A stretch of 33,012 nucleotides of DNA, taken from assembly GCA_003152315.1 (NCBI GenBank), contig PLZV01000046.1, forward strand, positions 1 to 33,012, written 5' to 3'. The DNA is from Verrucomicrobiota bacterium (GTDB lineage: Bacteria; Verrucomicrobiota; Verrucomicrobiia; Palsa-1439). This document shows, piece by piece, positions 331-6,424 of this stretch; the first letter of the stretch is position 1; each line of letters opens with the position of its first letter. Under the pieces are notes generated by a model that had not been told where the DNA came from, searched no databases, and saw only the letters and a program-made list of their open reading frames with translations. Both the position numbers and the translations under genes were made by a program.

Positions 331-345
331 TCTCCCCCTCAAATG

Positions 346-381
346 GATCTTGATCTGATCACCGATCCTATGGATCTGATC
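346..381. promoter_or_regulatory. Cluster of six GATC sites before the methyltransferase stump
   Basis: GATC occurs at 346, 352, 357, 364, 373 and 378, six times in 36 bp, where about one per 256 bp would be expected. It lies directly before the GTG start of a DNA methyltransferase remnant and in the same locus as a DpnI/Dam-replacing-type endonuclease remnant. DpnI itself recognises methylated GATC. The cluster could have been a methylation-sensitive control site for the locus (inference). A plain alternative is an Asp-Leu-Ile-rich coding fragment in another frame starting at 343. Confidence 0.35.
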
Positions 382-386
382 AGCTT

Positions 387-707
387 GTGGCGAGCAAACC
401 CAAAAGACGCAAGGCCGGTCTGGCCCCTGTCAATTATTCCGCCCCTCCCGAACGCCTCATCGCAAAGGACAGCATCCCTGTCCGCCGTAGCCTTGGCGAA
501 GGAGGAAATCCCCTCGACGGCATCGTCATGGAACCCGGCGCGCTCGCACCACTCAATTGCGTTTACCGCGACGACCCGCACGGCATCTTCCTCTACCAGG
601 GCGACTGCCTCGAAGTCCTCGACGCCATCGCCGCCAAACACCCCGACGGCTGTTTCGACATGATCTTCGCCAACTCGCCCGAACGAGTAAACTGGCTTTT
701 TCGATGA
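387..707 (+). pseudogene. Truncated site-specific DNA methyltransferase (N-terminal stump)
   Basis: The 106-residue product carries the start of an adenine/cytosine-N4 DNA methyltransferase. The signature LYQGDCLEVLDAI at about residues 69-81 is followed by CFDMIFA, which in intact members leads into the catalytic (D/N)PPY motif. Here the chain goes to NSPERVNWLFR and stops, so the catalytic tetrapeptide, the SAM-binding half and the target-recognition region are missing. Homology seems to end near 672-680. The start is a GTG without a clear ribosome binding site. The gene also contains an in-frame dispersed repeat at 478-506. Together with the endonuclease tail at about 3148-3254 it looks like one end of a broken type II restriction-modification locus. 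It is almost certainly non-functional. Confidence 0.7.
478..506 (+). repeat. Dispersed repeat inserted in frame in the methyltransferase
   Basis: The segment GTCCGCCGTAGCCTTGGCGA followed by AGGAGGA encodes SLGEGG on the plus strand and FAKATAD on the minus strand. I recognise this pair of peptides from dispersed repeats in PVC and candidate-phylum genomes, where they often read through genes. No second copy was found in this window, so the repeat status rests on recollection. It sits between IPVRR and NPLDG of the methyltransferase stump without breaking the frame. Confidence 0.45.
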
Positions 708-786
708 AGTTCCAGTAATCTGCGCAACGTGAGGGCGTTCAGACCAATCGACATTGCTCTAAGATTTGGGCCCAAACAACGCCGCT

Positions 787-1713
787 ATGCCTAACCCGAT
801 TCGAACACGGTTTGTCGAAGACCTGAAAAGCCGATTTGGCGTCGTCCGAAAACTGGAGGGCAGCGAATCTTTATATGAAGTAGGAAGTAGTGGTGCCCGT
901 GTTTACATCCGATACTCGCGCGTTCATAACAATAAGCGGGGATTCTACGGGCTAAGACACAGAGACCTGCAAGACTTAGAGGGGCATCCTTCGGTGGTGT
1001 GTTTCCTTTGGGACAAACAACAAGAACCGCTGCTCGTACCGTTTGCGGAGTACGAAGACTTGTTTCATACCCTCTCACCTGCAAGCGACGGCCAGTTCAA
1101 AGTGATGGTATATCCCCAAGATGAAGGTACCCAGCTTTACATAAACAATGTTGGTCGATTTAGTGTCGAAGGTCACTTTGGATGGGACAATCTCTCGGCC
1201 ATCGTAGGTTCATCCCGCGTTACCACAATTCCCGACCTGTCTCACTCCCAAGTGCAGACGCTTCTCGGCGCCATTGGCTGTGCGAAAGGATTCGATATTT
1301 GGATTCCGCCCAACAACCACTCTACGCTGGATTGGACTGTCGCCAATCAATTTAAGTGCCGCGGAAAATTCCCATCGGGCTTGGAGGCAGTTGCTGCTGT
1401 CGCGCAAGAAATCGATGTTATGTGGATAAAAAAGGGGTCGAACGATCCCCAGTCGTTGTTTGAGGTTGAGCATTCAACCCCAATCTATTCCGGGTTACTT
1501 CGATTCAACGACCTGCACCTCATTACCCGCAATCCAAAACTGCGCTTCAGTATCGTTGCCAATGATGCAAGGAGATCGGTTTTCGCCAGGCAATTGGGTC
1601 GACCAACATTTCAGACGAGTGGACTAATGGAGCTCTGCACTTTTTTTGAATACGGCGACGTGTTCGCGTGGCATAAACGAATCATGGAAGAGAAGGAGAG
1701 GGCACATCAATGA
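787..1713 (+). CDS. Predicted PD-(D/E)XK-type nuclease (restriction-like)
   Basis: A 308-residue protein with no firmly known function. The C-terminal half holds EIDVMWI at about 214-220 and FEVEHSTPIYSGLLRF at about 230-245. An Asp followed about 15 residues later by an E-x-E on a hydrophobic strand is the spacing expected of a PD-(D/E)XK nuclease core, and the FEVEHST...YSGLLR block is one I associate with restriction-type proteins (recollection). The N-terminal part (VYIRYSR, FYGLRHRDL) could be a recognition domain. ATG 787 is used; a TTG at 766 would add seven residues, and neither has a good ribosome binding site. The stop overlaps the next start as ATGA, so the two genes are translationally coupled. 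Its base composition looks lower in GC than the purine genes, which suggests transfer. It lies inside the broken restriction-modification locus. Confidence 0.6.
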   Translation: MPNPIRTRFVEDLKSRFGVVRKLEGSESLYEVGSSGARVYIRYSRVHNNKRGFYGLRHRDLQDLEGHPSVVCFLWDKQQEPLLVPFAEYEDLFHTLSPASDGQFKVMVYPQDEGTQLYINNVGRFSVEGHFGWDNLSAIVGSSRVTTIPDLSHSQVQTLLGAIGCAKGFDIWIPPNNHSTLDWTVANQFKCRGKFPSGLEAVAAVAQEIDVMWIKKGSNDPQSLFEVEHSTPIYSGLLRFNDLHLITRNPKLRFSIVANDARRSVFARQLGRPTFQTSGLMELCTFFEYGDVFAWHKRIMEEKERAHQ

Positions 1714-1889
1714 ATCGCAAAAGAAAGCGACGACCAATCTGGATTGCAGTCCAGGTTTGGCGAGGAATCCCAGTCGAAGTGAAAGCATTTCACGATCGTC
1801 AACTCGCTGAGAAGCGCGAATCCGCTTGGCGGAAGAAGATGCACGTCGATTACGACGAGACAGGGCTGTTCGCGGTCCGAGTTCAGTAG
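1710..1889 (+). CDS. Small basic protein coupled to the predicted nuclease
   Basis: This 59-residue ORF (MNRKRKRRPIWIAVQVWRGI at its start, ending LFAVRVQ) begins in the ATGA overlap with the preceding nuclease-like gene, a strong sign of translational coupling. Its N-terminus is highly basic (MNRKRKRR), followed by a beta-rich stretch WIAVQVWRGIPVEVKAF and an acidic segment near MHVDYDETGLF. There is no membrane segment or signal peptide. I do not recognise the family. It could be a nucleic-acid-binding accessory or regulatory partner of the nuclease-like protein (inference from coupling and charge). The reading frame is open for exactly this length and the next bases leave it quickly. Confidence 0.6.
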   Translation: MNRKRKRRPIWIAVQVWRGIPVEVKAFHDRQLAEKRESAWRKKMHVDYDETGLFAVRVQ

Positions 1890-1936
1890 TGCCGGTTTTC
1901 CGCCAATCTCGTCCGTTCGGGTCGGAGATTCTCGCG

Positions 1937-2062
1937 ATGAAATCCATGCAGCAAGAGCTCTACTCCGGGCCGAGATACTACGAGGGCGAGCTTTACAACA
2001 TCATTCGTCACGGACGCGGCGTGCCCGCTGTGCCATTAGTGCTTGTCGGCGTTGAGCCGTAA
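1937..2062 (+). CDS. Possible 41-residue small protein or gene fragment
   Basis: A short ORF starting MKSMQQELYSGPRYYEG and ending in a hydrophobic LVLVGVEP. GGAG nine bases before the ATG is an acceptable ribosome binding site. The same frame is open upstream to 1826, so it may be the tail of a longer broken gene instead of a true small gene. It lies 47 bp after the coupled nuclease-like pair and 14 bp before the stop of the convergent gene. The family is not recognised and no function is proposed. Confidence 0.3.
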   Translation: MKSMQQELYSGPRYYEGELYNIIRHGRGVPAVPLVLVGVEP

Positions 2063-2076
2063 CCGCACCTAACGAG

Positions 2077-3075
2077 TCACACCTCAACGCCCCTTGTTTC
2101 CCACGGCAACTCAACTCCAAGTTCTCCTCGAGCATACTCCGATCCGGATGCAACGTCAGAGGCGAGCCTCAATCGGTCAGCATCGAAGAGTTCTGCAACC
2201 TCCAGTGTAAACTCGCGCGGTAATTCCCTGCATATTTCTATGAACTTCTCACCGGTCTGATCGGAAGAAACTGCGGCGCAACGAGCGGCCCACACGATGA
2301 ACCGCAAAATCCGTTTGTCGCGTTCATTCTCGAAATCATCTTTACAGAAACATGTCCTCTGAAAAACCGCGCGCGTTATCATTGCTAGCGTGCTCCAACC
2401 GTGAGGCAATGCTAGTGAAGTGGGAGCGGTTTGCTCCAGGTCGCAACAAATTCTAATCCAGTGCGGAAGTAGCTTGGAAGAGTTATTGGCAGGAGCCGCG
2501 TTAGGCCAGAGAACGTCGATATACTGGGTTTCGGGCAGCGGCCAAGGTAGCACGCACGTCATCCGAACAGCATTTATCTCCAATTCACTGTGTCCTCTAA
2601 CCAATTCCGAGTCGATGTAAAGGCGGTTACCCGGCTCGCTTTTCTCCGCCAGCGCCACCTTCAAACCTGCCAATGCGTAGTTGCGCAGAAACACCTGGCG
2701 GTTCGCCTCATCTTCCTTCTTCTCCGAACGCTTCCCGAAGGGCACTAACTGTTCTTCGCCGTGCACCAGTGCTCCTCTGATCCACAATGGGTCATCCGGA
2801 GTATCGAGATTGTCGAAAGAAGCAAACAGATAAAGCGTCGCAAGCTCTAGTAGTGGCGCGTAGGGCGTGAGTTCGGCGCCCCGCCAAGTGACAACAAGCG
2901 AGTCACTGAAAATCTGTGCGTCATCGGGATAGACTGAAGTTCCTTCTAATGCCCACCGCTCGCACAATCTTGCGAATCGTTCAATTCTGGATTTCCCTTT
3001 TTCAATGTCGCGACCTAAAGCTGAACGCGTGCCCAGCAAATCGACAATTCCCAGCATAAACGGTTGGGCCAACAT
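2077..3075 (-). CDS. Predicted divergent class III cyclase-like palm-domain protein
   Basis: A 332-residue protein without an obvious named family. Three N-terminal features match the class III nucleotide cyclase/GGDEF palm fold. IVDLLG has an Asp at residue 12. FSDSLVV at 56-62 has a second Asp at residue 58, and the 46-residue spacing is close to that of the two metal-binding Asp residues in class III cyclases. RGALVHGE at 100-107 sits where cyclases have a VRIGIHTG-like strand. NYALAGLKVAL followed by RLYIDSELV resembles the next helix and strand. Whether it makes a nucleotide is unknown; the C-terminal half is unassigned. It has no signal peptide or membrane helix. It is convergent with the nuclease-like pair and sits inside the broken restriction-modification locus, so a defence role is possible but unproven. 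ATG at 3075 is used; Met7 is an alternative. Confidence 0.5.
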   Translation of the reverse strand: MLAQPFMLGIVDLLGTRSALGRDIEKGKSRIERFARLCERWALEGTSVYPDDAQIFSDSLVVTWRGAELTPYAPLLELATLYLFASFDNLDTPDDPLWIRGALVHGEEQLVPFGKRSEKKEDEANRQVFLRNYALAGLKVALAEKSEPGNRLYIDSELVRGHSELEINAVRMTCVLPWPLPETQYIDVLWPNAAPANNSSKLLPHWIRICCDLEQTAPTSLALPHGWSTLAMITRAVFQRTCFCKDDFENERDKRILRFIVWAARCAAVSSDQTGEKFIEICRELPREFTLEVAELFDADRLRLASDVASGSEYARGELGVELPWETRGVEV

Positions 3076-3147
3076 GGTCTTGGATTACATTCCGGCCATT
3101 ACTCGCACAGATGCAAGCCAACTTTCGCGCACGAACCAGAGTAGTTT

Positions 3148-3254
3148 CACCTGACAATCGCCACGTCAAAGACAAAATCCGCCAGCAACTCCAAGTCCTC
3201 CGCGACACCGGTTTCCTCTCCCACGTCGAGCGCGGAGTATGGTCGATCCGCTAG
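3148..3254 (+). pseudogene. C-terminal stump of a DpnI/Dam-replacing-type restriction endonuclease
   Basis: The plus-strand frame ending in TAG at 3252-3254 reads PDNRHVKDKIRQQLQVLRDT and then GFLSHVERGVWSIR. The block HV(R/K)DKIRQQLQVLRD followed by a short glycine-containing strand is the signature end of the winged-helix domain in DpnI C-terminal/Dam-replacing restriction enzymes. The upstream in-frame sequence (about 3075-3147) does not resemble the family, so the gene has lost its catalytic part and start. The stop codon overlaps the stop of the minus-strand gene at 3251 as CTAG. It mirrors the methyltransferase stump at 387-707. It is too short for a normal gene call. Confidence 0.7.
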
Positions 3255-3712
3255 TCTTCGGCTTCCAGAGCCTGTTTTTGGGGCGTCTCTACCGCGACGG
3301 AAGGCGATGCTGCCTTCGGTAAGTGGTCCACTTCGTATTGAAGTTTCTCCAATTGCAACCGCATCATCTTGTCCTGATCAGGCTGCACCTTCCAGTGCCA
3401 CATCGAAAACCCGAAGGCCATTATAACCAAACCAAATCCGGCGAGTACTCCAAGTGCTTTGTCAAAAAACTGTCTGTCCTGAACCGCTATTTCGTAACGC
3501 CTTTCCAAAACCTTTTTCTTGGCCAACACTTCTGGCGACGGGTTGGTGGTCTCCGGAATTGCCGCGTTTTCGATAATCGTTTGGAACACGGTTTCATTGG
3601 CTGTGCGTGCGTTGTAAACCGACGAGCCAATGCTAAATACAAACAGCAGCAATCCAAACAACGCGTAGAACTTGTAGATATTGTCCGTCGGAAGCGGGAT
3701 TCGGCTTTCCAT
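3251..3712 (-). CDS. Hypothetical two-helix membrane protein
   Basis: A 153-residue protein with two hydrophobic segments, about residues 13-33 (FYALFGLLLFVFSIGSSVY) and 86-106 (ALGVLAGFGLVIMAFGFSMW). They are separated by a charged, probably helical loop containing EVLAKKKVLERRYEIAVQDR. A charged tail with a short heptad-like stretch (MMRLQLEKLQYEVDHL) follows. It looks like an inner-membrane protein with an extracytoplasmic loop. No family is recognised. Copy A of the duplicated palindrome unit lies just upstream of its start and could carry its control region. The stop overlaps the stop of the endonuclease stump. Confidence 0.6.
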   Translation of the reverse strand: MESRIPLPTDNIYKFYALFGLLLFVFSIGSSVYNARTANETVFQTIIENAAIPETTNPSPEVLAKKKVLERRYEIAVQDRQFFDKALGVLAGFGLVIMAFGFSMWHWKVQPDQDKMMRLQLEKLQYEVDHLPKAASPSVAVETPQKQALEAED

Positions 3713-3739: not shown

Positions 3740-3907
3740 ACTTTCCAGCTTTACACAACCTGTCGCCATACTCGTCTCTCCTGCTGTGCCTGATACATAT
3801 CTAAGATATGTATCACCTCCCTCCCATCGCTGATACATGGTAGTACCATGTATCGACAGTACACACCGTTTCCCGTCGCCTCCGGGGATATTGGCGGTGC
3901 GCTTGGA
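3740..3907 (+). repeat. Duplicated intergenic unit, copy A
   Basis: This ~170 bp unit is repeated in direct orientation at 4100-4272. Shared parts in order are a CTTTCC-GCTT-ACACAACC-GTCGCC block, the palindrome with arms TGATACATATC, a second palindrome with arms GATACATGGTA, then CCGTTTCCCGTC followed by CTCCGGGGA-ATTGGCGGTGCGCT. The copies differ at scattered positions and in the spacer between the palindromes, so the duplication is not recent or is under selection only at the palindromes. It lies directly upstream of the membrane protein gene that starts at 3712. Confidence 0.7.
3791..3854. promoter_or_regulatory. Paired GATACAT palindromes, copy A
   Basis: Two perfect inverted repeats. 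At 3791-3815 the arms TGATACATATC/GATATGTATCA flank TAA. At 3832-3854 the arms GATACATGGTA/TACCATGTATC flank a single G. Both share the outer half-site GATACAT. Their centres are 40 bp apart, near four helical turns, as expected for cooperating dimeric DNA-binding proteins (inference). No regulator gene is adjacent. Confidence 0.55.
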
Positions 3908-4099
3908 AAAGGACGATTACATCATCGACGTCTTCGACAGCGCCATCGAGTCCGCTGACGACGCCCATCTCACCACCCACACCTGCGACACCTTCCGCCG
4001 ACGCTGAAGCTCTGGCGGACGGGGGGAACAAGTCCTCGCCTTCTGCACCCACTACGACGGCATTTCCGTACTCTGATCGCCACCGGCCTTGTTCCTGCT
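3908..4099. other. Spacer between the two duplicated units, no clear gene
   Basis: A GTG-started frame at 3897-4007 would encode a 36-residue peptide rich in acidic residues (EKDDYIIDVFDSAIESADDA). It has protein-like composition and could be a gene remnant, but no family is recognised. The rest (TCTGGCGGACGGGGGGAACA and onward) shows no open frame or RNA structure that I can support. Confidence 0.3.
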
Positions 4100-4272
4100 G
4101 CTTTCCGGCTTCACACAACCCGTCGCCCTGCATTCATTCTCCCTTCCAGCCCTGATACATATCTAAGATATGTATCATGCCGTTCTACGTTCCTGATACA
4201 TGGTAGTACCATGTATCGACGGTACATGCCGTTTCCCGTCTCCTCCGGGGACATTGGCGGTGCGCTGGAGAG
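4100..4272 (+). repeat. Duplicated intergenic unit, copy B
   Basis: Direct repeat of 3740-3907, offset by about 362 bp, with the same order of blocks: CTTTCCGGCTTCACACAACC, GTCGCC, two palindromes, then CCGTTTCCCGTCTCCTCCGG and GGCGGTGCGCT. It ends a few bases before the stop of the small membrane-protein gene at 4284. Conservation is complete in the palindrome arms and looser outside them. Confidence 0.7.
4153..4217. promoter_or_regulatory. Paired GATACAT palindromes, copy B
   Basis: The same two perfect palindromes as in copy A, at 4153-4177 (TAA spacer) and 4195-4217 (single G spacer), with centres 41 bp apart. The sequence between them differs from copy A while the arms are identical, which points to selection on the arms. 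Confidence 0.55.
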
Positions 4273-6330: not shown

Positions 6331-6424
6331 AACACTATCTCAAATGCCTGACCTCAGCCCGACGGTGGCGTGATCGTTGGTGAACGACATTGCCGCAGGT
6401 TACAATTGCCGGGCTATCGGTGTT

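Follow-up and report, generated by a model that had tools for sequence, protein, structure and literature searches.

Stacked remnants of restriction genes in a GATC methyltransferase locus of a Verrucomicrobiota bacterium

The DpnI and DpnII cassettes of pneumococcus alternate as whole cassettes. In Neisseria, a DpnI-like gene, drg, replaces the GATC methyltransferase at its own locus (PMC516771). The locus described here resembles both systems. It shares with the pneumococcal cassettes the swapping of GATC-methylating and methyl-GATC-cutting systems (compare PMC3573125), and with drg the substitution of a DpnI-like gene for a GATC methyltransferase (PMC516771). In contrast to DpnI/DpnII, both old genes are kept as stumps, with further restriction genes between them. 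In contrast to drg, the DpnI-like gene is itself broken, only its 3' end being left, and members of its clade lie beside a full methyltransferase in six loci. Events of this kind are thus already known from DpnI/DpnII and drg. What is unusual is the stacking, together with the occurrence of a DpnI-like clade beside a full methyltransferase. A literature search (best matches, titles and openings of abstracts) found no description of such stacked remnants, which is no proof of absence.

The window, i.e. the whole stretch of DNA analysed, is the entire contig C42 (33,012 bp), one of the 62 contigs of a 4.89-Mb draft genome. The locus lies 0.3-3.3 kb from the contig end, and since the window coincides with the contig, there is no sequence to be read left of position 1. 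Below, M denotes the DpnA-like adenine methyltransferase (which we take to be of the M2.DpnII type), D the DpnI-like and B the BglII-like endonuclease. From left to right, the locus contains a GATC-dense element, the M stump, a nuclease with a 59-aa ORF, the C-terminus of B, a convergent ORF, the C-terminus of D and a convergent neighbour (Table 1). It is probably a slot anchored on M, where one restriction gene after another was replaced. The left end of the slot would be the GATC-dense element with the 5' end of M, and the right end the 3' end of D next to neighbours common to the same-genus genome G002.

Table 1. Features of the locus (coordinates in the window)
Feature	Coordinates	Strand	Remarks
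Promoter-like element before M, conserved	336..394	+	six GATC in 346-381; runs into GTG start
N-terminal stump of DpnA-like N6-adenine DNA methyltransferase (M)	387..683	+	~98 codons; ORF 387-707
Apparently intact nuclease, 308 aa	787..1713	+	motifs IDVMW and FEVEHST..SGLLR; GC3 0.53
59-aa protein	1710..1889	+	overlaps nuclease by ATGA
Scar: C-terminal end of BglII-like endonuclease (B)	1916..2062	+	profile E 1e-21
Convergent ORF, 332 aa, no family match	2077..3075	-	low GC3 0.55
Scar: C-terminal winged-helix end of DpnI-like endonuclease (D)	3120..3254	+	stop and one-base deletion
Convergent neighbour, synteny anchor	3251..3712	-	relative adjoins end of intact D in G002

The GATC-dense element, a candidate promoter, is 96.6% identical over 59 bp to its counterpart in G002. 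Its six GATC sites fall within 36 bp, a number reached by none of 300 shuffled versions of the window (first-order Markov; maximum 4). In our reading of the locus scan, which covered 31 M loci, 14 have a GATC cluster (at least four GATC within 60 bp) directly upstream of M and 17 do not, and several M loci have a second cluster near the end of M. These clusters may provide control by methylation. In two loci of G010 (L053 and L067) GATC is sparse, with 7 sites in 6.5 kb and 16 in 8.4 kb versus 25 and 33 by length/256.

The M stump matches its profile at 516-680 (E 4e-18) and has matches in 22 of 188 genomes, the window's own counted. Approximately residues 40-98 match M of the same-family genomes G008, G009, G005 and G010, the four best others, at 72-83%. 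The DNA homology extends through the codons that correspond to DPP in motif IV (DPPY) and no further, and thus the break falls inside this motif; the stump predicted to end near 680 is real, whereas its break does not precede the catalytic motif. Where the family has DPPYFLSNGG and further homology, the window reads NSPE with nothing beyond, and the stump is a non-working member. M is broken at the same codon in G154 and a few codons later in G053. No close match to the remainder of M was found elsewhere in the window's genome. PF02086 has no match there, nor does M at E<=1e-30; weaker methyltransferase-like matches are present. Relative to its relatives, the stump contains an in-frame insertion VRRSLGEGGN at 480-509, which may resemble a repeat.

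At the right end, the D scar belongs to the Dam-replacing HTH domain family PF17726 (E 2.4e-12, profile positions 31-68 of 70). It matches the D profile at 3120-3245 (E 9e-17) and was matched in 11 of 188 genomes, the window's own counted. The catalytic domain of DpnI, with its catalytic residues, is absent from the window. The C-terminal stump of the DpnI/Dam-replacing kind, originally placed near 3148, is thus real and begins about 25 bp earlier. It is a decayed remnant, because the alignment to G002 reveals an in-frame TAG, followed by the loss of one base. G002 itself carries a full 255-aa D gene that ends next to a relative of the window's convergent neighbour, and the similarity continues downstream, with gaps, to window position 6353. 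With the same GATC-dense element, an intact D and the same right neighbours, G002 represents the orthologous site: both outer ends are shared and the contents between them differ. In place of M, G002 has a 475-aa gene with no Pfam or PADLOC match. The stretch examined in another genome of the genus, G001, contains neither M nor a DpnI-like gene, and a D12 methyltransferase lies beside the syntenic gene. Further downstream, window 3788-4225 contains repeated short inverted repeats, part of which are present in G002.

Since features begin 0.3 kb from the end of one contig of 62, assembly or binning could be suspected of having joined unrelated pieces. This is very unlikely, as the left element and the right neighbours both match the one orthologous site, in G002, and other versions of such loci occur in other genomes. 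G283 (L101, L102, L103) contains many dispersed fragments of a DpnI-like gene, mostly its 3' end, between other genes. A similar origin of the D scar as a dispersed repeat was considered and rejected, because its position and neighbours match the intact gene of G002.

A third remnant lies between these two. Region 1916-2062 matches the C-termini of BglII-like endonucleases: in G068 it aligns with the last part of a 239-aa frame (80% over 41 residues), G154 matches at 75%, and a further comparison gave 73.6% over 53 residues. The window holds only the last ~48 residues of the BglII endonuclease domain PF09195 (163 positions) and not the whole domain. Thus what had been listed as a possible 41-residue protein is the C-terminal remnant of B. 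As this third stump lies within the interior, the latter is no single cassette. The nuclease, the 59-aa gene and the convergent ORF were found together in no genome in gene-by-gene searches of different samples, and the self-contained set of the original prediction is not supported.

One could still assume that an already mosaic piece, comprising the nuclease, the 59-aa gene, the B scar and the convergent ORF, entered in one event between codon 98 of M and codon ~212 of D. Such an event needs only two junctions in the old genes, and the nuclease and the convergent ORF both have low GC3, the two lowest values among the 16 mechanical ORFs above 250 aa in the window. However, the GC content of the B scar (0.578) is above that of the nuclease (0.497) and of the convergent ORF (0.527), and G029 and G185 have pieces of M, B and D in this order but none of the other genes. 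We consider a single event improbable. Replacement inside a restriction-modification locus, as first proposed, is well supported, whereas replacement of one module by another in a single step is not: given the B scar inside and the M/B/D order in G029 and G185, more than one step is likely.

Candidate occupants of the slot are the nuclease and its partner, whose ORFs overlap at ATGA just as predicted. Residues 134-276 of the nuclease match the PADLOC profile PDLC03534 (type II restriction enzyme, E 1.8e-10), and a profile of seven relatives, built with the window left out, scores it at 93.8 bits. The motifs of its family, which carries the annotation type II restriction enzyme, are retained; most relatives share the C-terminal domain only. 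Its single-sequence structure prediction has a mean pLDDT of 36.2. Matches occur in 173 plasmid records, none over 80% of the query; no match was found in phage records, in viral contigs or in one scan of genome contigs. The 59-aa protein has one clear relative, in L140, beside restriction genes; it was matched in one other genome of 246 (E 0.007) and in no plasmid. The last event would also have removed about two thirds of M, so that no intact M, and probably no cognate methyltransferase, is left beside the nuclease. As a tentative guess, the nuclease would be either modification-dependent or kept harmless by its 59-aa partner.

The convergent ORF has no place in the explanation by a slot. 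It exists as predicted; the likeness to cyclases is unsupported, as no cyclase domain and no family match were found in Pfam, PADLOC and NCBIfam. The mean pLDDT of its single-sequence structure prediction (35.6) is too poor for use. One other genome of 188 gave a weak match with stops, and there was no match to plasmids or viral contigs.

Relatives contain full, partly replaced and scarred versions of the locus. M at E<=1e-30 is present in 31 of 384 genomes of the class, and the stretch was scanned in all 31, some being cut by contig ends. Full D beside M was found in four of them (G173, G251, G265, G345) and D remnants in four (G028, G029, G185, G248); the remnant in G029 is weak (E 0.01), and that in G248 was missed by the profile scan, found in a separate search and aligned. 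In all, a full M is followed on the same strand by a full D, in an operon-like arrangement, in six loci (L050/G173, L074/G251, L149/G265, L154/G345, L133, L195). This order of intact M and D supports the original reading of the two stumps as ends of one module. In L202, M is nearly full and D is frameshifted.

The C-terminal scar of D behind another gene, as in the window, was observed in G028 (GmrSD-like gene), in G248 (MutH-like R, the scar containing TAG), in G029 (the weak remnant) and in L131 and L138. The latter two come from the DpnI search and have a full M, another gene (REase_II in L131) and then the scar. The order M, B pieces, D pieces is that of G029 and G185. In G185, B lacks its C-terminus (profile positions 1-121 of 163) and the D remnant covers residues 28-78, with two ORFs between, so that both are without their 3' ends. 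Because G185 keeps the front parts of B and D, the survival of 3' ends as scars is no rule.

G287 carries, directly behind M, a member of the nuclease family found in the window (32.7% over 101 residues). The link of this family to M is thus seen in one locus, and that of B in two. Across the relatives scanned, M of this family is followed by MutH-like, R2, R3, DpnI-like, BglII-like or window-family nucleases. In these relatives the restriction gene next to M varies from locus to locus, whereas the window unites parts of three such partners at a single site.

A C-terminal extension of M was observed in 12 distinct loci of those examined, five of which are source rows of the extension profile; it is followed by D in nine, by B in two and by the nuclease family in one. 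The extension is in frame with M in L106, L217, L050, L219, L099, L100, L133, L074 and L202, follows M in a frame of its own in L195, and occurs alone before D, without an M match, in L057 (G031) and L161. It was looked for in the window and is absent. The M proteins closest to the stump are same-family proteins without the extension, followed by R of other types (MutH-like, R2, R3). Hence the stump may not descend from an extended M of the kind that pairs with D, B or the nuclease.

Less probably, a DpnI-like gene first invaded and truncated an incompatible M-R locus and was itself broken by later genes. The M and D stumps would then be layers and not partners, which is compatible with the slot. 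Among at least 484 relatives in the DpnI_C survey, 80 loci were kept; among the matches listed, a truncated M immediately precedes a full DpnI in seven of the 80, and three of these seven retain the C-terminal end of a MutH-like R behind DpnI. These seven loci demonstrate another route, DpnI itself truncating M. G002 likewise has an intact D and no body of M, and replacement of dam by drg is known (PMC516771). However, the endonucleases differ at one of the catalytic residues of DpnI, Asp53, Glu64 and Lys66 (PMC4117772). Among the matches listed, the Glu64 site is E in 7/7 DpnI behind a truncated M and Q in 6/6 D with a full M, which are in the clade of G002. D of G002 has Q as well. In a midpoint-rooted tree of 75 sequences among the matches listed, 20 have Q, and 18 of these group in a single clade (support 0.99) including all six full-M D and G002; the remaining two, L200 and L203, lie apart. 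But M is not the rule in this clade, its other 12 members having no M match in the stretches scanned. The methyl-binding Trp of DpnI (PMC4117772) is retained in 75 of 77 DpnI-like rows among the matches listed, so that a changed methyl dependence of the Q clade is no more than a hypothesis. A 63-aa ORF follows DpnI in L151, L165, L173 and L197.

Returning to the slot anchored on M, the DpnI-like gene would have come first and the BglII-like gene second, followed by today's nuclease and its 59-aa partner. Both losers would have left only their 3' ends in the window, ordered by distance from M. The mechanism may have been homologous recombination on the conserved M side and illegitimate joining on the other side. 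A broader interpretation, which we offer tentatively, is that one-sided recombination anchored in the GATC methyltransferase often leaves 3' scars of the genes displaced by newcomers, and that D of the Q clade acts alongside a GATC methyltransferase that is active; such cooperation would be the reverse of classical DpnI. If a newcomer beside M often leaves the 3' end of its predecessor, the succession of earlier enzymes can be recorded in the scars. Sequence alone would then reveal some of the history of restriction enzyme replacement, and the locus points to testable relatives of DpnI that may have lost or reversed the dependence on methylated GATC.
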